Below, in pieces: positions 9,042 to 37,204 of a stretch of DNA of 39,281 bases. The notes below the pieces were generated by a model. That model ran no database searches. It was not told where the DNA came from and saw nothing but the letters and a program-made list of their open reading frames with translations. Made by a program: the position numbers and the translations under genes. The stretch covers positions 1 through 39,281 of the forward strand of contig JAILRB010000012.1 in the NCBI GenBank assembly GCA_024698585.1, read 5' to 3'. Origin of the DNA: Eubacterium sp. Lineage in GTDB: Bacteria > Bacillota > Clostridia > Lachnospirales > Lachnospiraceae. Position 1 is the first letter of the stretch. Every line of letters begins with the position of its first letter.

Positions 9042-9061
9042 TTAGGGAAACTTCTCCCTAA
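9042..9061 (-). other. hairpin between FMN aptamer and terminator
   Basis: TTAGGGA (9042-9048) pairs with TCCCTAA (9055-9061), loop of six. It sits between aptamer and terminator and may be part of the switching structure. Its role is inferred from position only. Confidence 0.5.
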
Positions 9062-9184
9062 TCTTCTTCTCTCATCCAGACTATACTGTCGGTCATGGAA
9101 TCACACCATGTCATGCCTTGCGGCTCGCTGACTTATGCTTTCGCAAACACAGCCGGTGGGGAATTTCGCCCCGCCCCGAAGTAT
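9062..9184 (-). ncRNA. FMN riboswitch (RFN element)
   Basis: Read on minus, the conserved RFN elements occur in order: CTTCGGGGCGGGGCGAAATT, CCCCACCGGC, an AGTCAGCGAGCC block, GTGTGATTCCATGACCGAC and finally AGTATAGTCTGGATGAGAGA. FMN binding normally stabilises the aptamer and allows the downstream terminator (8996-9026) to form, lowering rib expression. The aptamer starts about 5 nt after the lysC stop codon, so there is no intergenic space for a promoter upstream. Confidence 0.96.
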
Positions 9185-9188
9185 TCAA

Positions 9189-16758: not shown

Positions 16759-16848
16759 TGCAATCGTCCAGAGCCACTAAAAATACCGTTCATCCGAAGC
16801 TTTCAAATGCTCGCATTTGAAGGCAAGGTTGTGCGGTATTTTTTGTGG
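16759..16848. repeat. left end and nested hairpins of the structured repeat upstream of hpf
   Basis: TGCAATCGTCCAGAGCCAC (16759-16777) is the inverted partner (one mismatch) of the right end of the block at 17022-17040. Inside it, AAATACCG pairs with CGGTATTT, and TTCAAATGC-TC-GCATTTGAA forms an inner hairpin, giving a nested structure. Confidence 0.8.
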
Positions 16849-17040
16849 CGAGTACGCCCCAGCGAAAAGACGCATAGCGGATTTGAGCTGGGTGGCTCTG
16901 GACGATCCTTCGGCGAGTACGCCCCAGCGAAAAGACGCATAGCGGATTTGAGCTGGGTGGCTCTGGACGATTCTTCGACGAGTACGCCCCAGCGAAAAGA
17001 CGCATAGTGGATTTGAGCTGGGCGGCTCTGGACGATTGCA
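16849..17040. repeat. three tandem 65-bp repeats
   Basis: Units start at 16849, 16914 and 16979, exactly 65 bp apart and nearly identical; the last is slightly shortened. Each unit contains CCCCAGC...GCTGGG, which can pair, and ends with GTGGCTCTGGACGAT, the complement of the block's left end at 16759. No gene is supported inside. Confidence 0.93.
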
Positions 17041-26278: not shown

Positions 26279-26435
26279 CAGTTCAGCCACAAGAAACATC
26301 CCCGAAGCCACAGAAAGATTGCTCGCAATCTTTTGTGGTTGAGGGGATGCTTTCTTATGCGCGGAGCGCCACATCGATGAGTAAAACTCATTTGCGAAGC
26401 AAATGACTGGTGACGCAGTCACCGTTTTACGAATC
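26279..26435. repeat. left end and hairpin cluster of the third structured repeat block
   Basis: AGTTCAGCCAC (26279-26290 region) is the complement of the GTGGCTGAACT that ends each downstream unit. Next come nested arms AAGAAACATCCCC/GGGGATG-C-TTTCTT (26291-26303 and 26343-26356) around CCACAGAAAGATTGC-TC-GCAATCTTTTGTGG. Four short hairpins with 3-nt loops then follow: GCGC-GGA-GCGC, ATGAGT-AAA-ACTCAT, CATTTGC-GAA-GCAAATG and GGTGAC-GCA-GTCACC. Confidence 0.85.
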
Positions 26436-26625
26436 GCTGTGGTGGCTGAACTATATTATTGGTACTGTTTTGGTGCCACAGCGGTTTGGGCGCTGTGGTG
26501 GCTGAACTATATTATTGGTACTGTTTTGGCGCCACAGCGGTTTGGGTGCTGTGGTGGCTGAACTATATTATTGCTACTGTTCTGGCGCCACAGCGGTTTG
26601 GGCGCTGTGGTGGCTGAACTATATA
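26436..26625. repeat. tandem 56-bp repeats, three full units plus a partial
   Basis: Units start at 26436, 26492 and 26548 (exact 56-bp period), with a partial unit from 26604 that ends just before the gpx stop codon. Each contains CCACAGCG...CGCTGTGG, a potential hairpin spanning the unit boundary, and GTGGCTGAACTATAT. Few base differences separate units. Confidence 0.93.
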
Positions 26626-27533: not shown

Positions 27534-28103
27534 TTATCGTCGCCGATATTGCGATATTTTTAGTGGTGCCAATCCCCCGTATTTCCCTGACTCTTCAGGC
27601 AGTTCCTCTTTCTCAATTACCACATCATTTTCTTGGAGATACTCATAAAATCGTTCCGCATCCTCTCCCGTAATTGTAGCATAGAATAATGCTAAATAAG
27701 GGGATTTATAATCTCCCATATCGTGAATGTAAATAACCTTTTCTTTTCGGTCTGAGCAAACATTCACATGCATCCTACGATTTTCATAATAAATGTGACG
27801 GTCTTTTGCGAAAAAATCAAACGAACGCGTCATCCAGGAGTTCTCGTACACCTTATTTGCGCGCTTAAGAAGATGTACCAATAACGGTATAAATATTATC
27901 ACACTTACACCTAATGTTACTGCGCCAACGAATATAAAAATCACACCAACTCTCACATCAAGAGCTTCTCTAAGCAGCCTTCCAAAAGCGATCACTAAAA
28001 CTGCTCCAATGAGTGCAGTTCCTATCACAACTATCGGTATGAATAATTTCTCACCCTCTCTGTTCATTTTTTTTCTATCTCGTATTTCTGCATTTACAAA
28101 CAT
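27534..28103 (-). CDS. hypothetical two-TM membrane protein
   Basis: A 189-residue protein of no recognised family. Two hydrophobic segments (about 20-42 and 52-75) are followed by a soluble domain (about 80-189) that looks alpha/beta, with a C-terminal acidic stretch (EKEELPEESG) and a basic end (YRRR). The layout resembles small membrane proteins with a cytoplasmic PH-like or YcxB-like domain, as does the 144-residue protein at 28984. The ATG has AAAGG 6 nt upstream. The 63-bp-period array lies immediately upstream, within its leader or promoter region. Confidence 0.6.
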   Translation of the reverse strand: MFVNAEIRDRKKMNREGEKLFIPIVVIGTALIGAVLVIAFGRLLREALDVRVGVIFIFVGAVTLGVSVIIFIPLLVHLLKRANKVYENSWMTRSFDFFAKDRHIYYENRRMHVNVCSDRKEKVIYIHDMGDYKSPYLALFYATITGEDAERFYEYLQENDVVIEKEELPEESGKYGGLAPLKISQYRRR

Positions 28104-28130
28104 AATTGTACCTTTCTATTTTCCCCTCTT

Positions 28131-28479
28131 CCACCTATAAAAGAATTTTCCACCTTTTAGGTGGTTTTTTCATCTCTATATTTCTTCTTTTTCCACCTAT
28201 CTGAACAATTTCTATAATTTAGGTGAATTATTCATCCTCTTGCCACTTCATTTTTCCACCTATAATAACACTTCTGCTCTCACAGGTGGATTTCATGACG
28301 TCTACCTTTTAAATATCTCCACCTATTTCTCGTGTTTTCCCCCAATAGGTGAAATCTCCCCTAGGACTACCTCTTTTTTCTCCACCTATTTTCCGGATTT
28401 CCTTGAATTAGGTGAATCCGCCCTCCAAATCCACACCAAATCCTTCACCTATTCGAGTGTTTTTGCCGAATTAGGTGGA
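28131..28479. repeat. six-unit array of inverted CACCTA/TAGGTG motifs, 63-bp period
   Basis: CACCTA occurs at 28132, 28194, 28257, 28320, 28383 and 28446. TAGGTG (CAGGTG in unit 3) occurs at 28158, 28220, 28283, 28346, 28409 and 28472. Spacings are 62, 63, 63, 63 and 63 in both series, with the two motifs always 26 bp apart. The 8-bp arms (TCCACCTA/TAGGTGGA) are conserved, while the 20 nt between arms and about 30 nt between units are unrelated. Each unit can form a stem with a 20-nt loop. The period equals 21 codons, and a plus frame from 28240 shows STY...LGG repeats, but no ribosome binding site or known protein supports translation. Confidence 0.9.
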
Positions 28480-28512
28480 TTCATCATGATTTGAACCAGT
28501 CTTCAATAAGAA

Positions 28513-28541
28513 AAGAACCATCTCAGCACGAAACGGTTCTT
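28513..28541 (-). terminator. possible terminator downstream of the RHS locus
   Basis: AAGAACC...GGTTCTT extends to a 12-bp stem with two wobble pairs and a 5-nt loop. The T-run on minus (TTCTTATT) is weak. It separates the RHS-side transcript from the 63-bp array. Confidence 0.45.
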
Positions 28542-28983: not shown

Positions 28984-29418
28984 TCATTTCATTGTACTCC
29001 AACTAATTATAGTTAATATTTCTTTCATAGAAAAACACCTGTCTTTTTCAGAAAGCATAATATTATATTTTGGAAATATAAGTTTTCTATTATCACATTG
29101 CAAATAGTAATTCTTGATTGTCTCCGTTTTAATTGTAATACGATTTTTCACATAATACTTCTTTAATAAAGAACTTAGCACCAACATTTCACCTTCATAT
29201 TTTGCCTTGTAAATAGTAATTAAACAATTATAATATATCAAAAAACAACCTATAATTCCTACAAAAAAAAGTGTTCCAACAAACAAAAGTTTAATGTGGA
29301 TTTTATCTGCCAAAATCACCCCCAAAACACTTGCAAAAAAAATAATTAAGGACACGAAATTCACAAGTACAAAACCATATATACATAAACCCTTCATTTT
29401 TTTCTTCTCAATAACCAT
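28984..29418 (-). CDS. small two-TM protein, candidate immunity protein for the RHS effector
   Basis: A 144-residue protein of unknown family. Two membrane segments (about 10-33 and 41-64) precede a basic, beta-rich soluble domain (about 70-144). It starts 13 nt after the stop of the giant YD-repeat gene, with AAGGA upstream, so it is in the same transcript. In WapA- and RHS-type loci this position is normally occupied by the cognate immunity gene, and a membrane location would suit protection against an envelope-targeting toxin. This role is inferred only from position and topology. Confidence 0.55.
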   Translation of the reverse strand: MVIEKKKMKGLCIYGFVLVNFVSLIIFFASVLGVILADKIHIKLLFVGTLFFVGIIGCFLIYYNCLITIYKAKYEGEMLVLSSLLKKYYVKNRITIKTETIKNYYLQCDNRKLIFPKYNIMLSEKDRCFSMKEILTIISWSTMK

Positions 29419-29431
29419 ATTTTCCTTCTTT

Positions 29432-32400
29432 CTATTTAGATACTTTAATCTTTTTCTTTTTCAAATAAAACTTTACTGCTCTTCTCTCCCTAGATATTTT
29501 AAACTTTGCATACTTCTTTTTTTTGGTATATTTAACTGTTACTCCTTTCCCTTTAACTGTTTTTTTCGTTCCATTTTTTAGTTTTTTAATGGAGTCAATA
29601 CTGATTTCTTTTAATTTCCAAGTATATCCTCCATCAATTCTATATGTTAAGGGAATAATAGCTGCAGAATATCCCAATTCACCTTGTACTCCTGCTTTAA
29701 AATTTGACCAATCTAAAGTGGCTCCCACTGACGCTTTAATGCCATAACTCCAGGCCAAAGACGTTGACCAACCAACACCCAAAACATCTTTCGCTTTTTT
29801 CATTGTAGGATAGACTACCAGCCCCAAAGAAGCACTTGCAGAGGCATTTACTTGATACTGTCCTCCCAGCGAAAATGTTATTACAATATTTTCTGTATCT
29901 GTGAAAACACCAACGTGAGTAAATAGTCCCATTCCACAACCTGCTTGAAGTTCTGCATACGCCCCTATAACAAAATGCCCGCTCGGATCCACATAATTTA
30001 TCGGATTTCCTTCACAATATCCGTACAGATTCCAACTTCCTGCGTCAGTTTCCTTGCCCCTGTATGTATCCTGACTCATAAATACACCATCTTCAGGATT
30101 ATAATATCTGGCATTTAAATAATACAGTCCTGTTGACTTATCATACACTCCTCCTGTATAACAAATTTCATTATCTACCGTTGAATCTAGTCTTTCACTA
30201 GTTTCACCAAAGTCTGTGTAATCATATGAATTAGCACAATTACCACTTGTATCTGTGATATTAGTTATACTTCCCTGTACATCCTTAGAATAAAAATACT
30301 CTTTCTGACCATCTTCATATCTAATTGTAGCAAATGTATTACTAGCATTTCCTATGATGTTTTGGCTTGTCTTTTCTCCATTTTCATTTGTAGTATACAA
30401 AAGAAGACTTCCTTCATAGAAATAGTTCGTTGTTTCAGTCTTGTCTCCGGACTCTGAACTGATTTTCTCTACTTTCTTGATTCGTTGACCGGCACCATTA
30501 TACTCATTATGCTGTACTAATTTCTCATTAACCCTAACATCAACTAACTGATTTTCGACATCATACGCATAAGCTGTTGTATCTCCACTCTTTCCATTAA
30601 CTTCCTCTTCCTTATTTCCCTTGTCGTCATACTTATAAGTACTAACATATGTTTTACAAGATAAATTATTGCCAACAGTTTTAGTGCATACTTCGTTAAC
30701 TTTAACAAGCTGATTTAATTTATTGTATTCATTACGATGGTATGTTCCTTCTAAAATTTCTCCTTCATCAGCTACTGTATATCTTACCGTCTTTGCATCA
30801 TAGCTTCGATTTCCCATCTTATCATAATCATACACAGATGTAGTTGTTTTAAGACTTAAGTTGTCTACATTTTCAGATTTTATCAGTTGATTAGAACTAT
30901 TGTATGTATATATGATATCTTCATCTTTTTTATTATTAATATAATTGAAGACTTCTCGCTTTCTAGTTATATTAGAATTCTTATCATAACTATAATTATA
31001 AGTCTCCAAAATATTATCTAAATCATTGCTGTTAGAATATTTCATAGAAGTAACTCTATCAAACACATCATATGTGTACTCTCTATAAATATATTCTTCC
31101 TTTTTATCTAAGAAATTTTTATAATCCTTAATAGTCTTAACTTTTCCATCATTATGATATACATATTCTCTTATCTTTGCTGACTCATCTCCTGAAAACA
31201 ATGCATCAATCGATACAATCCATTTATCCTTGTTATAATTAAACTTAATACCTTTTAACTCATCATTACTATTATTAGGATAATAAATCTTTTCTATGTT
31301 GTCATCTACATTGTAGACATATTTAAGTTTTGCATTCTTTTTTATCTCATCACTAGGCTTGCTTTCGGCGTTAACCTCTGCTACGGAAATATTTCTTCCA
31401 TACTTATCATACTCATAGAATGTGTATCTATATGGTGTTTCACCATGTTTATCCACAGATTCTACTAACTGATTTTCGTCATTATAAACGTATTCTGTAA
31501 CACCATCTAATTCATTTTTAGGAGTATAACTCATTTTCTTGGTCTGATTACCATCAATATCATACTCAAACTTCACATAGGAACCATCATTATAGGTTTC
31601 TTTAACCTTTAATCCCTCCTTGTCATACTCATATGATGTCTTTAGATTTCCGTCAGCACTTTCATCTGATATAGACAATACCTGACCAGAACCGTTAGTT
31701 GCGGTTACGGATTTAGCGCCATTAACATAAGTAATACTTTCCTTTATTGAATTACATTTCCCATCAATTTTATTAAACTCATCATAATTATAAGTTCCCT
31801 TAACCTCTTCGCTTTCTAGAACCTTACTGATTCTTCCCTGAGAATCATATTCATATGATGTTTCATTTCCCATAGCATCAATTGACTTTAATAGATTTCC
31901 GGCACTATCATATTCATTCCTTGTAACTATAGAATTATCTCCTACTTTTATTGAATCCCCTTTAATTTCCGGGTTAATAATAGTTGCAACTAGATTTCCA
32001 TTCTTATCATAAGTTGAAACAGATAGTTTACCTTCTTCTACTAAATCAGGATTTGACTCATTAACTCCGCTGACATAAGTAGTAAAAACTTTTCCATTGT
32101 TATCATATGTATAGTCTGAGAAGATACCATTACTCATTTCTCTAACAGTTCTACCATACGCGTCAGTATAAGTTTTTCCTACAACTTCTCCTCTATCATT
32201 AGTTACAGTAACTATATTGAGATTTTCTAATATTTCTAAACTTCTTCCATTGTTTCGATTGATACTTCCATAAGAATATGATGTGTTAGTTATTTTTGAA
32301 TCGCCATCTACCACTAATTCTGTTTTTGTGGTTCTGTTCATAGAATCATAAGTAGTCTTAGTAATTCTGTTTTTCTCATCCACAGACTCTATAACACTAC

Positions 32401-35400
32401 CATTTTCATTATATTTATTCTCTGTAGTTTTTTCTCCTTTTTTTGATATTTCAGAAGTTTTTATAGTTCTTAAAAACTCGTCATAATAATACTTATTAAC
32501 AACTAAATTTGTTCCCTTAACTAAGGCTTTAATATTATCAATACTGTTGTCCTTCTTTAGATTCTTTACTAAATCTTCACTTATTTCTTCATTAGAACTT
32601 ATATCAACAATTACATTACCATAATCATCATAGATATATGCATTTTTCTTTTCAACTGTCCCTTCACTAGATTCTTCGTTTACTTCATCGCCATTTTCAT
32701 TATATTCAGTGTTTTCATCTGACGATAAAATGGCTGTATTATCAAAGTTTTCTTTCGCTACATCTTGACCAATATATTCCTGGCTACTTGAAACTTCGCC
32801 ATCATCACCATAAGTATAAATAGTCTTAATATTTTTAATATAGTCTATTTCTTCAATTACATTTCCTAACTTATCATATTTGAATGTTGTATTCTCTGTA
32901 ATATTTCCATTTGGATCAGTAACGTTAGTATTTGTCGGCTGTTTTTTTACTGCGTCTATACTGTTAGAACTGTAATCGTATGTATTTTTGGTAATTGTTC
33001 CGTCTGCATCTATTGATTTAATAATGTTTCCATGAGAATCATACTCTGTTTTATCATTATTAGATATCTGTTTTTGAACCACAGTATCATTTTCAAGTGT
33101 ATAATAACTTTCTTTATCAGTTGTATCTGTCAACAGTGATATCGTATTTTTATCATAACTGTATGATGATGTATTTCCTAAGGAATCTTTTTTATATGTA
33201 ATTCTGCCATCTATTGTAAAGTTATATTCTTCACTTCTTACTTCGTTACCCTGACTGTAACCTTTTATTTTAGTCACTGGCTGGGATTGTTTCTGATTTT
33301 TAGTAAAGCTGAATGTTGTATATTCACCATTCGGATAATGAAATTTAGAAATATATTCCTCATTATATTCAATACTATATTCATTGTCCATAGCATCGAT
33401 TACAGCAGAAAGTCTATTATCATTATTGTAACGATATTTGTATTCTATCTTGTCACCATTAGTTCCAACAAATGTAGCCTTTTTTAATCTACTATTATCA
33501 TACTGATATTCATAACTGTATGGCTTATCATTGTCTGGCGCAGCTGTGATTTTACTAATTAGCCCCTCCTCATTATATGAATATTTAACTTCTTGACCTT
33601 TAGATGTAGATACACTTTCAATTCTTCCATTTTTGCTATTGTAGTCTACATATACAAAAGTTCCATTACTTTCTTCCATCAAAACTAAACGTCCACCATC
33701 GTCAAATCGATAAACGTTACCATCTTTAGTTTTTATTTTATAATAAACATCAAGTTCTAGCTCTTTTAGAACGGTTTCTTCCTTCTCTATTTTTCGATTT
33801 AATCTATCATCATCTATTTCTAATGTCAGCCCCTCATTTTCATTGCATATATATTCATTTTCTTTCTTATTAAATGTATACACTGCATTAGTTCCATCTA
33901 CATAGTAGATTTTATCTCCTACCTTTGAGACATACATATCATAAGCCTGTCTCCATCCGTATCCCATTGAAGATATTTCAGTGCTCTTAGAATTATATGT
34001 TCTATCCATATTGACAGGAAGCTGTGGTGCAGGAAGTGATATATCCTGCTGTGTAAATATGAAGTTACCTCTTGATAATTCTATCTTGGCAGTTCCATTA
34101 GGAGTGTTAAATGACATATACTCATTTAAGGAATTATCTCCAAGTCTATTTTCTAGCATATCTAAAGATTTAGTAGTCGAAGAAATTTCCTCCGAATAAT
34201 CACTGTACTGTGCACTATCTCCTGTTTTCTTTACAGTTCTAAGTTTATAATAATACGTTTTTCCTTCATCATTAGAAATCTTAATTGTACCTTTTGATTC
34301 GAATGATTTTACAAATGTACTCTCATTTATAACAACATTTGGGGTTTCTGATCTATATACCTGATATTTAACATCATCTCTATACTTACTACTTTTAGTA
34401 GAGAATCTAATTATTGTATTTCCGCCTAACTGTTCAATAGCATAAACATCTGTTGGTGTATAATCCTCTAATTCATAATCCTTAGTTTCATAATAATAGC
34501 TATACTCGATTTCCTCTGAAGTATTTCCCGCCTTATCAATTCCTCTAATTGTTAGGTTATACTTTCCATCCTCTGGAAAATCTGAACTAGGAAGAAGACC
34601 TTCCCCAGAAGACTCAAATCCTAATGTTTTAAACGCTCCATCATCTACTTTAATCTGAACTTCTGATAAATTGTCATCATTGATTCCACTCCACTTAACA
34701 GTTGGGAGCTTATTACTAGAATTGAAAAAACCTGTCTTAGGAGTTACTCGAACCTCACCTTTTTCCGGTTTTACTGTATCTCTATAATAAGTTATTTCTT
34801 TATCTGTCTCATTATCAGCTTTATCTACAGCAGTTAAAGTGATAGTATTTTCACCCTCTTCTACACCTTCTAGCTCTATTTCACCTGAATTAGAGTTTAC
34901 ATTAATTTTATTATTATTTAATAGAACCTCATATGATTTCAATGTACTATCTGTAATTGAATATTTCAATTTAGGTTTATTAGTGTAATTGTCCATCTTA
35001 TCCTTATTAGTATTTGGTGTAATAGATGCGGTTATGGTAGGATCTGTTTTATCATAATAATAAGTAAAGCTTTTCTCTACGCTAGTATTTCCTGCCTTAT
35101 CTATAGCTCTTATTTTGATACTATTAACTTTGCCGGATATTAATCCATCAATTTTCTTACCTTCATCATCTTTGCCACTATTATCTGCATCATCACTTAA
35201 CCACTTGTATACTCCTTCGTTAAGACTAAACTGAACAGATTTAAAATTCTTATCTGTCACCTTCCATTTCACTTCTGGCAAATCACTGCTATAATTACTT
35301 GCAGAGCTACTATCTATTGTAGCTGTATTAATTACTGGATTGGTTTTGTCTATTACAAAAGAAGCACCTTTTCCGGTACCCTTTATTCCTCCTTTATCCA

Positions 35401-37204
35401 CGCCTCTTACATAAACTTTATATGTACCATCACTAAGCGAAGATACATTTATATTTTTATTTCCTGACGCAGTTGTTCCTATATGTGTATTTTCTGAATA
35501 TTTTACTACATCATTTCCTGCTGAATTTTCAATTCTATACTGAATATAACTTAATGCATGCGCTGATATACCCTTCCATGAAACATTTAAGTTTTCTCCA
35601 GATTTCAACTGGGTTCTGCTGGTATCATTGGCACATGTAGCACTAACACTGCTAGCTGTACTTGGGGCATCATAATATACCACCTTTAATTTAGGTATGT
35701 TTTTTGAGGCTCTAGCACCATAAAACTTAACATACGATGATCCACTCTCATCATCAGCCTTAAATTCTAAGCCATAGTTTTTGTTTCCATTACCTGAACC
35801 CTTAGCTACATTTTGTACCCATGTTTTTAAATTAATTTCATGTACGGCATCTACCTTTCCTGATGATTTGAATGAAGCAAGGGTTGCACTTGTACCACCT
35901 GGTTGATTATTCCATGTGAGACTTCCACATTTGAACGAATCTTTTGCTGGTTTTACCAATATTTTTGCTCCGCTTACGCTGGATCCATTTTCATATATTG
36001 TGAGTGTTGCACTGTCAATATATTTATTATCTACAGTTTTAGCTAAATCTAATGCTCTAAAATAAGTTCTAAATACTCCCTGAGCTCCCTTTCCGACAGA
36101 AAATGTCTTTACTCCACTGCTAAAGTAGTTAGTACTTGATGTATTATTTAATACATATGCTTCAGGTAGTGTAGTTGTTCCACTCCACGAAACTGTTGGG
36201 TCAATGCTTATAGGATACTTAGCTTCATCTAAATATTTAGTATCAACATTTAGCTTCAACATATACTTATGAACTTCTTTGTTATTTTCATCTAATAATT
36301 CTTCTAATTCATACGTTAAATTTTCAGAATAATTATTATTTGTAACATCGTTCATAAACGGGGCATCAATTCCACCAAGAATATCTTCTCCATCTTCTGA
36401 ATAAATGGTAATTCCATTTCCTATTTCATCTTTTTTAGCAATCATTCCCTGTAATGTCATCTTAAATGTAAATACATTGCTATCAGGCTTTTCGTGAAGT
36501 ATAATTGTTTCTTTTACTCCACAATTTAAAGATTCGTAAGATAAATCTATATTTTTTTCTTTATCTGAATAGTTAGCTACAATATTCTTTTCTTCTGCCT
36601 TTTCATTATAAATATTTTCAATTTTTTCCTCTTCTAATTGCACCTTATCAGTTTTTCCTGATAATGCAGTGATATCTTCATTAGAAACATCAATGTTTTC
36701 TTCATTATTTGAACTAATTTCCCCATTTGTAGGAGCAAAGGATATTGCATAATCATCCTTGGTCATTACTATTGGTGTAGATTCATTAACCTTTGTTGGG
36801 ATAAATTGCTTAGAATCACCGCTGTCATTGGTAAATTTGTATTTATCCACCTCATTTTTCTTAACCTCTACTGACTCAACTAAGTTTTTCTTCTCCTCAC
36901 TACTTATTTTTCTAAGTTCCGGATTAAATTCCTTTAACTCTCCCTTTTCATTTTCAAAATATATATCATCCGAATAGTATGTAGTCTGCTTCATACCTGT
37001 AGACAATAAAAAAGTAGTAGAATCCTTTGTTCTCTCTCGAACAATTTCTTCTACTACTTCTGGTTGTTCATATCCCTCTTCTGATATCACCTTATTTTCA
37101 TTTTTCTTATCTGCCTTAACGGTAATTGCAGATACATTAATTCCGCTTATAGCTAAACTAAAAGCCATTGTCATTGACACTGCCTTACTAATAATGTTAT
37201 TCAT
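29432..37204 (-). CDS. WapA-like secreted YD-repeat (RHS) protein with unrecognised C-terminal domain
   Basis: A 2590-residue secreted protein. It has a signal peptide (about 1-31); an N-terminal region of about 30-340; a DNRLRE-type domain (about 340-512, with PISIDPTVSW and TLTIYENGSSVSGAKI); four Ig/FN3-like modules (about 515-905, repeating AGNTS and DKTNP-type turns); one more FN3-like module (to about 1010); a long YD-repeat shell (about 1030-2270, with NEYDSAGNLLKSID-like units); and the RHS core ending YYNPEDGVFMSQD and NPINYVDPSGH. The DP-x-G motif marks self-cleavage in RHS proteins. The last 180 residues are a separate Gly/Ala-rich then Lys-rich beta domain. It resembles Bacillus WapA, a contact-dependent growth inhibitor. 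Strong promoter and GGAGG ribosome binding site. Confidence 0.9.
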   Translation of the reverse strand: MNNIISKAVSMTMAFSLAISGINVSAITVKADKKNENKVISEEGYEQPEVVEEIVRERTKDSTTFLLSTGMKQTTYYSDDIYFENEKGELKEFNPELRKISSEEKKNLVESVEVKKNEVDKYKFTNDSGDSKQFIPTKVNESTPIVMTKDDYAISFAPTNGEISSNNEENIDVSNEDITALSGKTDKVQLEEEKIENIYNEKAEEKNIVANYSDKEKNIDLSYESLNCGVKETIILHEKPDSNVFTFKMTLQGMIAKKDEIGNGITIYSEDGEDILGGIDAPFMNDVTNNNYSENLTYELEELLDENNKEVHKYMLKLNVDTKYLDEAKYPISIDPTVSWSGTTTLPEAYVLNNTSSTNYFSSGVKTFSVGKGAQGVFRTYFRALDLAKTVDNKYIDSATLTIYENGSSVSGAKILVKPAKDSFKCGSLTWNNQPGGTSATLASFKSSGKVDAVHEINLKTWVQNVAKGSGNGNKNYGLEFKADDESGSSYVKFYGARASKNIPKLKVVYYDAPSTASSVSATCANDTSRTQLKSGENLNVSWKGISAHALSYIQYRIENSAGNDVVKYSENTHIGTTASGNKNINVSSLSDGTYKVYVRGVDKGGIKGTGKGASFVIDKTNPVINTATIDSSSASNYSSDLPEVKWKVTDKNFKSVQFSLNEGVYKWLSDDADNSGKDDEGKKIDGLISGKVNSIKIRAIDKAGNTSVEKSFTYYYDKTDPTITASITPNTNKDKMDNYTNKPKLKYSITDSTLKSYEVLLNNNKINVNSNSGEIELEGVEEGENTITLTAVDKADNETDKEITYYRDTVKPEKGEVRVTPKTGFFNSSNKLPTVKWSGINDDNLSEVQIKVDDGAFKTLGFESSGEGLLPSSDFPEDGKYNLTIRGIDKAGNTSEEIEYSYYYETKDYELEDYTPTDVYAIEQLGGNTIIRFSTKSSKYRDDVKYQVYRSETPNVVINESTFVKSFESKGTIKISNDEGKTYYYKLRTVKKTGDSAQYSDYSEEISSTTKSLDMLENRLGDNSLNEYMSFNTPNGTAKIELSRGNFIFTQQDISLPAPQLPVNMDRTYNSKSTEISSMGYGWRQAYDMYVSKVGDKIYYVDGTNAVYTFNKKENEYICNENEGLTLEIDDDRLNRKIEKEETVLKELELDVYYKIKTKDGNVYRFDDGGRLVLMEESNGTFVYVDYNSKNGRIESVSTSKGQEVKYSYNEEGLISKITAAPDNDKPYSYEYQYDNSRLKKATFVGTNGDKIEYKYRYNNDNRLSAVIDAMDNEYSIEYNEEYISKFHYPNGEYTTFSFTKNQKQSQPVTKIKGYSQGNEVRSEEYNFTIDGRITYKKDSLGNTSSYSYDKNTISLLTDTTDKESYYTLENDTVVQKQISNNDKTEYDSHGNIIKSIDADGTITKNTYDYSSNSIDAVKKQPTNTNVTDPNGNITENTTFKYDKLGNVIEEIDYIKNIKTIYTYGDDGEVSSSQEYIGQDVAKENFDNTAILSSDENTEYNENGDEVNEESSEGTVEKKNAYIYDDYGNVIVDISSNEEISEDLVKNLKKDNSIDNIKALVKGTNLVVNKYYYDEFLRTIKTSEISKKGEKTTENKYNENGSVIESVDEKNRITKTTYDSMNRTTKTELVVDGDSKITNTSYSYGSINRNNGRSLEILENLNIVTVTNDRGEVVGKTYTDAYGRTVREMSNGIFSDYTYDNNGKVFTTYVSGVNESNPDLVEEGKLSVSTYDKNGNLVATIINPEIKGDSIKVGDNSIVTRNEYDSAGNLLKSIDAMGNETSYEYDSQGRISKVLESEEVKGTYNYDEFNKIDGKCNSIKESITYVNGAKSVTATNGSGQVLSISDESADGNLKTSYEYDKEGLKVKETYNDGSYVKFEYDIDGNQTKKMSYTPKNELDGVTEYVYNDENQLVESVDKHGETPYRYTFYEYDKYGRNISVAEVNAESKPSDEIKKNAKLKYVYNVDDNIEKIYYPNNSNDELKGIKFNYNKDKWIVSIDALFSGDESAKIREYVYHNDGKVKTIKDYKNFLDKKEEYIYREYTYDVFDRVTSMKYSNSNDLDNILETYNYSYDKNSNITRKREVFNYINNKKDEDIIYTYNSSNQLIKSENVDNLSLKTTTSVYDYDKMGNRSYDAKTVRYTVADEGEILEGTYHRNEYNKLNQLVKVNEVCTKTVGNNLSCKTYVSTYKYDDKGNKEEEVNGKSGDTTAYAYDVENQLVDVRVNEKLVQHNEYNGAGQRIKKVEKISSESGDKTETTNYFYEGSLLLYTTNENGEKTSQNIIGNASNTFATIRYEDGQKEYFYSKDVQGSITNITDTSGNCANSYDYTDFGETSERLDSTVDNEICYTGGVYDKSTGLYYLNARYYNPEDGVFMSQDTYRGKETDAGSWNLYGYCEGNPINYVDPSGHFVIGAYAELQAGCGMGLFTHVGVFTDTENIVITFSLGGQYQVNASASASLGLVVYPTMKKAKDVLGVGWSTSLAWSYGIKASVGATLDWSNFKAGVQGELGYSAAIIPLTYRIDGGYTWKLKEISIDSIKKLKNGTKKTVKGKGVTVKYTKKKKYAKFKISRERRAVKFYLKKKKIKVSK

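Follow-up and report, generated by a model that had tools for sequence, protein, structure and literature searches.

CRISPR and TIGR arrays are regular arrays that lie beside a nuclease gene, and the iterons of plasmid origins and the centromere-like arrays parS, parC and tubC are helically phased sites for a protein that regulates its own gene. Palindromic repeats are also found together with enzyme genes. For REP/BIME elements and their RAYT (TnpA-REP, a Y1 HUH transposase), one report describes an enzyme gene flanked by two inverted REPs and, for the Stenotrophomonas type, a GT(A/G)G head and a palindrome interrupted by 2–4 bases (PMC2817692). Type III toxin–antitoxin systems, i.e., ToxIN, CptIN and TenpIN, carry a Rho-independent terminator between the repeats and the gene, as set out in PMC5086642. 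Our literature search, to which subscription journals were largely closed, returned no description of an array–nuclease system of the kind considered here.

The array that we analyzed lies in a 39,281-nucleotide stretch of Eubacterium sp. DNA, hereafter the window. An initial annotation of this stretch, made from the letters alone, had reported six CACCTA-N20-TAGGTG pairs, and all six are present: 28132–28163, 28194–28225, 28257–28288 (one mismatch), 28320–28351, 28383–28414 and 28446–28477, in steps of 62, 63, 63, 63 and 63 bp. With their full arms and in minus-strand order, the units on this strand comprise unit 1 (28444–28479; arms TCCACCTA and TAGGTGAA around a 20-bp centre), units 2, 3 and 5 (28381–28416, 28318–28353 and 28192–28227, respectively; arms TTCACCTA and TAGGTGGA), the one-mismatch unit 4 (28255–28290; arms TCCACCTG and TAGGTGGA) and unit 6, 62 bp from unit 5 (28130–28165; arms ACCACCTA and TAGGTGGA). 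The window contains six matches at up to two mismatches, whereas 100 dinucleotide shuffles averaged 0.68 matches and never exceeded 3. Throughout the source genome (G000; 2.51 Mb, 65 contigs), the exact pattern occurs 11 times and a reversed control pattern once. The exact matches are on contigs C1, C25 (which holds the window), C41 (as two single copies) and C62. The array on C1 corresponds unit by unit to that of the window, and C46 carries a further array at one mismatch, consisting of six 63-bp units with about 91% similarity. Just ahead of this array, an 83-bp stretch is exactly duplicated in tandem, together with a terminator-like hairpin (L032:7486–7639).

Each unit is an inverted repeat with arms of about 8 bp and an A-centred middle of about 20 bp, the arms being about 28 bp apart centre to centre; across arrays, the arms range from about 6 to 12 bp and the centre from about 14 to 25 bases. 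The earlier statement that everything between the two six-letter words is unrelated therefore holds in part, given that the arms reach about 8 bp and the middle of the loop is mostly A. In 44 units from five genomes, the two central positions of the 20-base loop, read on the minus strand, are A in 38 and 39 cases, respectively. The view that the array is not coding agrees with our findings, since the 62-bp steps break any frame and many units carry stops in the HL..RW frame. A terminator-like hairpin with a T-run is found just before the array (28505–28541, minus strand), and a similar one is also ahead of the arrays G000:C1 and G000:C41b. The downstream co-directional gene (27534–28103, minus strand) starts 29 bp past the array and encodes a 189-aa product with two hydrophobic stretches and without a Pfam match. 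The array may serve as an operator for this adjacent membrane-protein gene.

Several other features of the window were noted. Beside a ribosome-hibernation-type gene is an intergenic 65-bp tandem repeat (16847–17036; three copies, 96% alike) that contains the inverted words CCCAGC..GCTGGG; this is possibly another array of the window kind, its arms not being matched to a nuclease-linked array. A 56-bp tandem repeat (26435–26624; 3.4 copies, arms GCTGTGG/CCACAGC), intergenic after a glutathione-peroxidase-like gene, is out of helical phase because 56 bp corresponds to 5.3 turns. The window also contains an FMN riboswitch (9060–9187; Rfam RF00050, 100.6 bits) and encodes a 2590-aa Rhs/YD-repeat-type protein (29432–37204), with a small ORF just downstream (28984–29418); a shorter Rhs-type ORF (L005:1536–2702) follows the paralogous array on contig C1.

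When related genomes were searched, as the initial annotation had suggested, the exact pattern was found in 5 of 23 genomes of the genus, including arrays in G007. A covariance model of the unit additionally detected arrays of equal geometry with different arms, i.e., CTCATCTA/TAGATGAG and TGCACCCT/AGGGTGCA. In other genera, the arms were ACCACC/GGTGGT, TTGACCC/GGGTCAA, TGCATCC/GGATGCA, TCATCTC/GAGATGA, ATGCATCCC/GGGATGCAT and TACGTCCA/TGGACGTA. A two-unit pattern resembling the exact one matched 2 of 299 genomes of the bacterial family, and the two-unit model R2 gave matches in 18 of 200 family genomes at an E-value of 1e-3 and in 9 of 392 genomes of the order at 1e-5. On inspection, the weaker R2 matches in G056, G083, G208:C6 and G293 were not arrays. 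The exact double-unit pattern gave seven stretches in a genome contig collection, including L036 and L040, which were rejected as lying inside repetitive coding-like DNA, and L037 and L041, which are plausible further arrays. Arrays of the window kind are widespread, mostly in Lachnospiraceae. Two other repeats were encountered in these searches. Beside the two-unit array G002:C28, at about 5330–5750 of L015, is an intergenic repeat (ACCACATAAATCGCATT..TGTGGT) that looks like another array with other arms. G064 contains many copies of a different palindromic repeat that the unit model weakly catches (e.g., L147:914–1206), with a period of 125 bp in one place; this is a separate repeat family.

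Young arrays have loops and linkers that are almost the same from unit to unit, and in old arrays the two diverge jointly with increasing distance. By this measure, the array of the window is old and diverged. The same observation rejects CRISPR-like variable loops, in line with the annotation's remark that the array matches no familiar CRISPR layout. The C62 array and its orthologous counterpart in G007, a second species, align without gaps, with 76 of 80 positions identical in the arms and 115 of 237 in the loops and linkers. Hence, arms and spacing were kept through divergence; as the remainder diverged without gaps, this points to selection on the array itself. The number of units varies: at one locus present in four species (G000:C41a, G002:C57, G008:C19 and G007:C76; L006, L016, L020 and L019, respectively), there are 1, 1, 2 and 4 units, i.e., the number changes by whole units. 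Such variation would suit selfish palindromic repeats that have no cell function and are spread by a nuclease in the way proposed for REPs and RAYT transposases, as would the enzyme gene next to the repeats and the dispersed orphan arrays with the same arms that are described below. Mere copying, however, would not be expected to maintain a helical phase, and the gap-free conservation of arms and spacing in old arrays with a diverged remainder also argues against this explanation. We consider it very unlikely.

It was proposed from the window alone that units recurring every 63 bp, or six turns of B-DNA, are helically phased. This idea extends to the other genomes, where unit spacings lie near 5, 6, 7, 8, 9 and 10 turns, clustering near 52–54, 61–65, 71–75, 83–85, 92–95 and 104–106 bp, with a best period of 10.4–10.5 bp and a phase near zero. 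Two sets of spacings, overlapping in some loci, support this result. The first consists of distances between consecutive units found with the single-unit model in 38 of 42 sources; its 41 genome–spacing values from 12 genomes, which lie near 52–54, 61–64, 73–74, 83–85, 92–95 and 104–105 bp and also include sums of spacings where units were missed, gave a best period of 10.4 bp (R = 0.83). The second comprises 71 spacings from 51 gene-linked arrays, chosen without the covariance model and with no spacing preference beyond a 38-bp minimum. Here a scan of 7–20 bp placed the best period at 10.5 bp, with a phase of −0.17 bp and R = 0.79; 59 of the 71 values deviated from whole turns by no more than about 0.15 turn, and 0 of 20,000 jittered sets were as good. 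Collapsing this set to 40 genus-level values gave R = 0.73, again with 0 of 20,000 jittered sets as good. The worst-fitting spacings include 48, 108 and 114 bp. Spacings are also mixed within single arrays, for example 52, 61, 52 and 52 bp in G489, 53, 105 and 62 bp in G536 and G633, and 63, 63, 63.5, 52.5 and 73 bp in the array G536:C4. The best explanation of these spacings is that like half-sites would face one side of double-stranded DNA.

We compared the neighbours of 48 arrays and found that the gene just downstream is homologous at six loci in four genera: G000:C62 and G007:C64 (one genus), G031:C74, G033:C66, and G536:C9 and G633:C55 (one genus). The arms and spacings differ between those founding loci that belong to different genera. 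Among 68 gene copies examined out of 88 matches, at least three units occur within 900 bp upstream of 46 and at least two units upstream of 51. The corresponding counts in control windows, a conservative choice in that they came from loci with weak model hits, were 3 and 11 of 126 (Fisher p = 5e-24 for at least three units). When units on either side are counted, 51 of the 68 copies have at least three; the downstream array is the best in 6 of those 51, and a few of them, such as G646:C4 and G093:C2, are irregular. Gene-linked arrays were also found in G001, G019, G021 and G022, where the covariance models gave weak or no hits. Counting against a two-part system of array and gene, 17 of the 68 copies lack an upstream array of at least two units. 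Of 34 consensus loops read in gene orientation, 28 have A at the centre, three have T and three have G. Terminator-like hairpins occur in the 250 bp before the array in 14 of 43 gene-linked arrays and between array and gene in 0 of the 43 scanned. The genes downstream of arrays are co-directional in 38 of 45 cases and the upstream genes in 29 of 41, counts in which a few small ORFs are possibly spurious.

The members of this gene family encode proteins of about 270 aa (272 aa for the C62 type) that match no Pfam or NCBIfam model. They comprise a helical N-terminus, a middle segment (residues 41–95) in which Q46, Y61 and Y78 are conserved, and a C-terminal domain of PD-(D/E)XK type. The motif residues K162, E164, D195 and E210 are kept in all 68 of the 68 copies, as are S161, A168, Y180, E181, P194, F196, H211, G213, Y220, E247, Y61 and Y78. 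The assignment of the motif lysine is putative because the third motif reads E-H rather than E/D-x-K. In all six members that were scanned, the C-terminal half is matched by PADLOC models of PD-(D/E)XK type (best E = 4.4e-29); there is also a weak match to a PHROG endonuclease (E = 6e-5). A sequence search of the PDB gave no related chain, its one match being irrelevant (E = 0.61), and a structure predicted from three sequences was too poor (mean pLDDT 51, pTM 0.39) for use in judging the alpha-beta-beta-beta-alpha-beta core of the PD-(D/E)XK superfamily.

The gene family is present in 26 of 50 genomes, with up to 11 matches per genome. It was found in 15 of 16 genomes with arrays known beforehand, compared to 2 of 12 genomes of the bacterial family without a listed array (Fisher p = 5e-5); one of these 12, G053, is absent by name from the model searches shown. 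No member was found in the 11 genus members G003–G006, G010–G015 and G020. Further weak-match genomes gave one (G112), nine (G495), three (G064) and zero gene matches (G628 and G486). In G221, an array is present and the gene was not found, the genome being 70% complete. Among mobile elements, two loci on viral contigs both encode the C-terminal domain alone, fused to a helicase-like protein, and six plasmid records contain the C-terminal part alone. Of three phage records, one covers 84% of the query, with no array in about 1 kb upstream. The location of the arrays upstream of this nuclease-like family partly supports the earlier suggestion of a protein array, in which the binding itself is a step that we infer.

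An alternative is that the repeats, which lie immediately ahead of a nuclease-like gene on the same strand and have a purine-rich strand, are transcribed into a series of RNA hairpins; these might act, for instance, as an antitoxin for the nuclease, as in type III toxin–antitoxin systems, or as a leader RNA. In keeping with such a role, the arms pair in 95% of cells and covary strongly across arrays (score of 0.461, compared to 0.178 when shuffled), and 7 of 8 arm pairs have changes on both sides. However, pairing was part of how these alignments had been selected, and a single protein that reads both half-sites would lead to complementarity across arrays just as well. Changes within 35 arrays gave one-strand pairing no favour: single arm changes produced 38 G.U pairs, 31 A.C pairs and 31 other mismatches, i.e., G.U was not preferred, and the eight double changes (four of them Watson–Crick), compared to about two expected, represent a small excess toward pairing. 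Strand asymmetry, which a few units had suggested as a sign of RNA, failed to hold over the 35 arrays. An inner stem within the loop is weak, with 44% of cells paired, and the window array had no Rfam match at gathering scores. The lack of a terminator-like hairpin between array and gene differs from the type III arrangement as given in PMC5086642, and the steps of 10.4–10.5 bp fit B-DNA, for which an RNA gives no reason. Transcribed hairpins are, in our judgement, quite unlikely. The initial annotation had argued for selection at the level of either DNA or RNA; it is the DNA level that the helical spacing supports, whereas the proposed RNA of six hairpins is weakened by the absence of a G.U preference.

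The arm sequences follow the relationships between gene copies. Related copies in different species share arms, such as TACGAATGA in G007:C12 and G002:C26, and copies within one genome mostly differ, as illustrated by the five gene copies with five different arms in G007. Mean arm scores were 5.1 for protein pairs more than 60% identical and 1.4 for those less than 40% identical. In a permutation test with 51 arrays, arm similarity was most strongly correlated with the middle segment of the protein (rho = 0.126; 0 of 1000 permutations). The other parts ranked below it: N-terminus 0.095 (3 of 1000), whole protein 0.058 (30 of 1000), nuclease part 0.049 (53 of 1000) and linker 0.032 (132 of 1000). 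This correlation is weak and vanishes for pairs below 60% identity; therefore, shared descent could produce the link between arm and protein.

The same arms also occur at arrays away from the gene. Those of the window (TCCACCTA) equal the arms of the array before the family gene on C62 of the same genome. Among 50 such orphan arrays, which are not an unbiased sample given that they were found with models trained on such arms, 38 score at least 6 against a gene-linked array from the genome in which they lie; the best fit is in the own genome for 22, tied for 13, and better in another genome or absent for 15. The array G008:C19 has CACCTA arms, yet its genome, rated 100% complete, has no gene-linked array with those arms. 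Arrays lie upstream of genes as unrelated as those for a RimK-type ATP-grasp protein, an ECF sigma factor, an HTH/zinc-ribbon regulator, an LMW phosphatase, an amidohydrolase and an ABC ATPase. Together with the co-direction of 38 of 45 downstream genes, this would agree with operators of some other regulator, for which the nuclease-like gene is merely a regular target. Such an explanation would require many regulators, as arms differ within a genome and are shared by related copies, and each would need to keep the geometry of about 36 bp and the A-centred loop. Moreover, blast comparison of the 48 neighbourhoods revealed no second recurrent neighbour family, except for orthologous neighbours of the same loci. 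We therefore regard another regulator as unlikely.

Our preferred reading, to which we assign a probability of roughly 0.6, is that the array in the window is an orphan set of sites belonging to a two-part system composed of a phased array and a cognate nuclease-like protein of about 270 aa. It builds on the observed geometry, phasing, linkage to the gene family, shared arms and intact motif. The nuclease-like protein probably binds the arrays. We infer in addition cooperativity, regulation, cleavage and an effect on the neighbour gene. The middle segment would read the arms, with one protomer per half-site and two per unit, and neighbouring units on the same face would be bound cooperatively. 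An array directly upstream of its own gene could regulate the expression of that gene (autoregulation), and arrays elsewhere, including the copy in the window, might recruit the same protein upstream of other genes. Nuclease activity may introduce nicks or cuts in the array or close to it, and this would account for the changes in unit number and the dispersal. An inverted repeat with a centre distance of 28 bp (2.7 turns) is unusual for a simple dimer and counts against this two-part system.

More tentatively, and with rather less confidence than doubt, we propose that this PD-(D/E)XK family represents a class of sequence-specific DNA modules. Each member would have a private arm word, with phased arrays at its own gene and others seeded elsewhere; the nuclease would copy and re-size arrays without an HUH transposase, and orphans would re-wire their neighbours. 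Should the protein read the arms, this one family would comprise dozens of naturally matched DNA words and binding proteins. It would then also constitute a repeat–enzyme system parallel to REP/RAYT on another nuclease fold, account for a large set of the minisatellites between genes of Lachnospiraceae from gut and rumen, and reveal, across many independent arrays, selection for whole helical turns, a sign of DNA-level architecture that is seldom visible.

Compared with described systems, the arrays differ from CRISPR and TIGR arrays in having no guide-like spacers, the loops and linkers of young arrays being near-identical. In contrast to iteron and centromere arrays, there are many arrays per chromosome, with several arm types, inverted units and a centre of about 20 bp, and we saw no partition or initiator gene beside the arrays. 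The PADLOC candidate PDC-S68 and HEAT_CxxC_PD-DEXK proteins share the C-terminal domain of the protein (about residues 135–266; best E = 4.4e-29 and 1.6e-8, respectively). The PDC-S68 models have more than 1200 positions and match at their C-terminal end only, and the N-terminal and middle parts of the family protein match no model. As in type III toxin–antitoxin systems, tandem repeats lie directly upstream of a nuclease-like gene (46 of 68 copies). Unlike them, the repeats here are inverted and helically phased, a terminator follows in 0 of 43 arrays and within-array changes bear no sign of RNA selection. This candidate was rejected because Pfam and NCBIfam gave no ToxN, CptN or TenpN match, PADLOC matches are of PD-(D/E)XK type and the terminator is absent.

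The nearest parallel is REP/BIME with RAYT. Both involve intergenic palindromic repeats, co-evolution of enzyme and repeat, and dispersed copies that match the repeats at the enzyme gene (38 of 50 orphans scoring at least 6). A direct assignment through the Y1 domain (PF01797) was rejected: this domain was over the cut-off in one of five array genomes (G000, two genes), below it in G007 and not found in G002, G008 and G009. The two-sided flanking of REP/RAYT genes was not seen, the array being upstream in most copies, and the unit consensus has no GT(A/G)G head. The array system hence resembles REP/RAYT in logic but departs from the features that define that family: its enzyme carries a motif of PD-(D/E)XK type and lacks a Y1 domain, the array is mostly on one side of the gene, the palindrome is interrupted by about 20 bp rather than 2–4 bases, and the units form helically phased tandem arrays.
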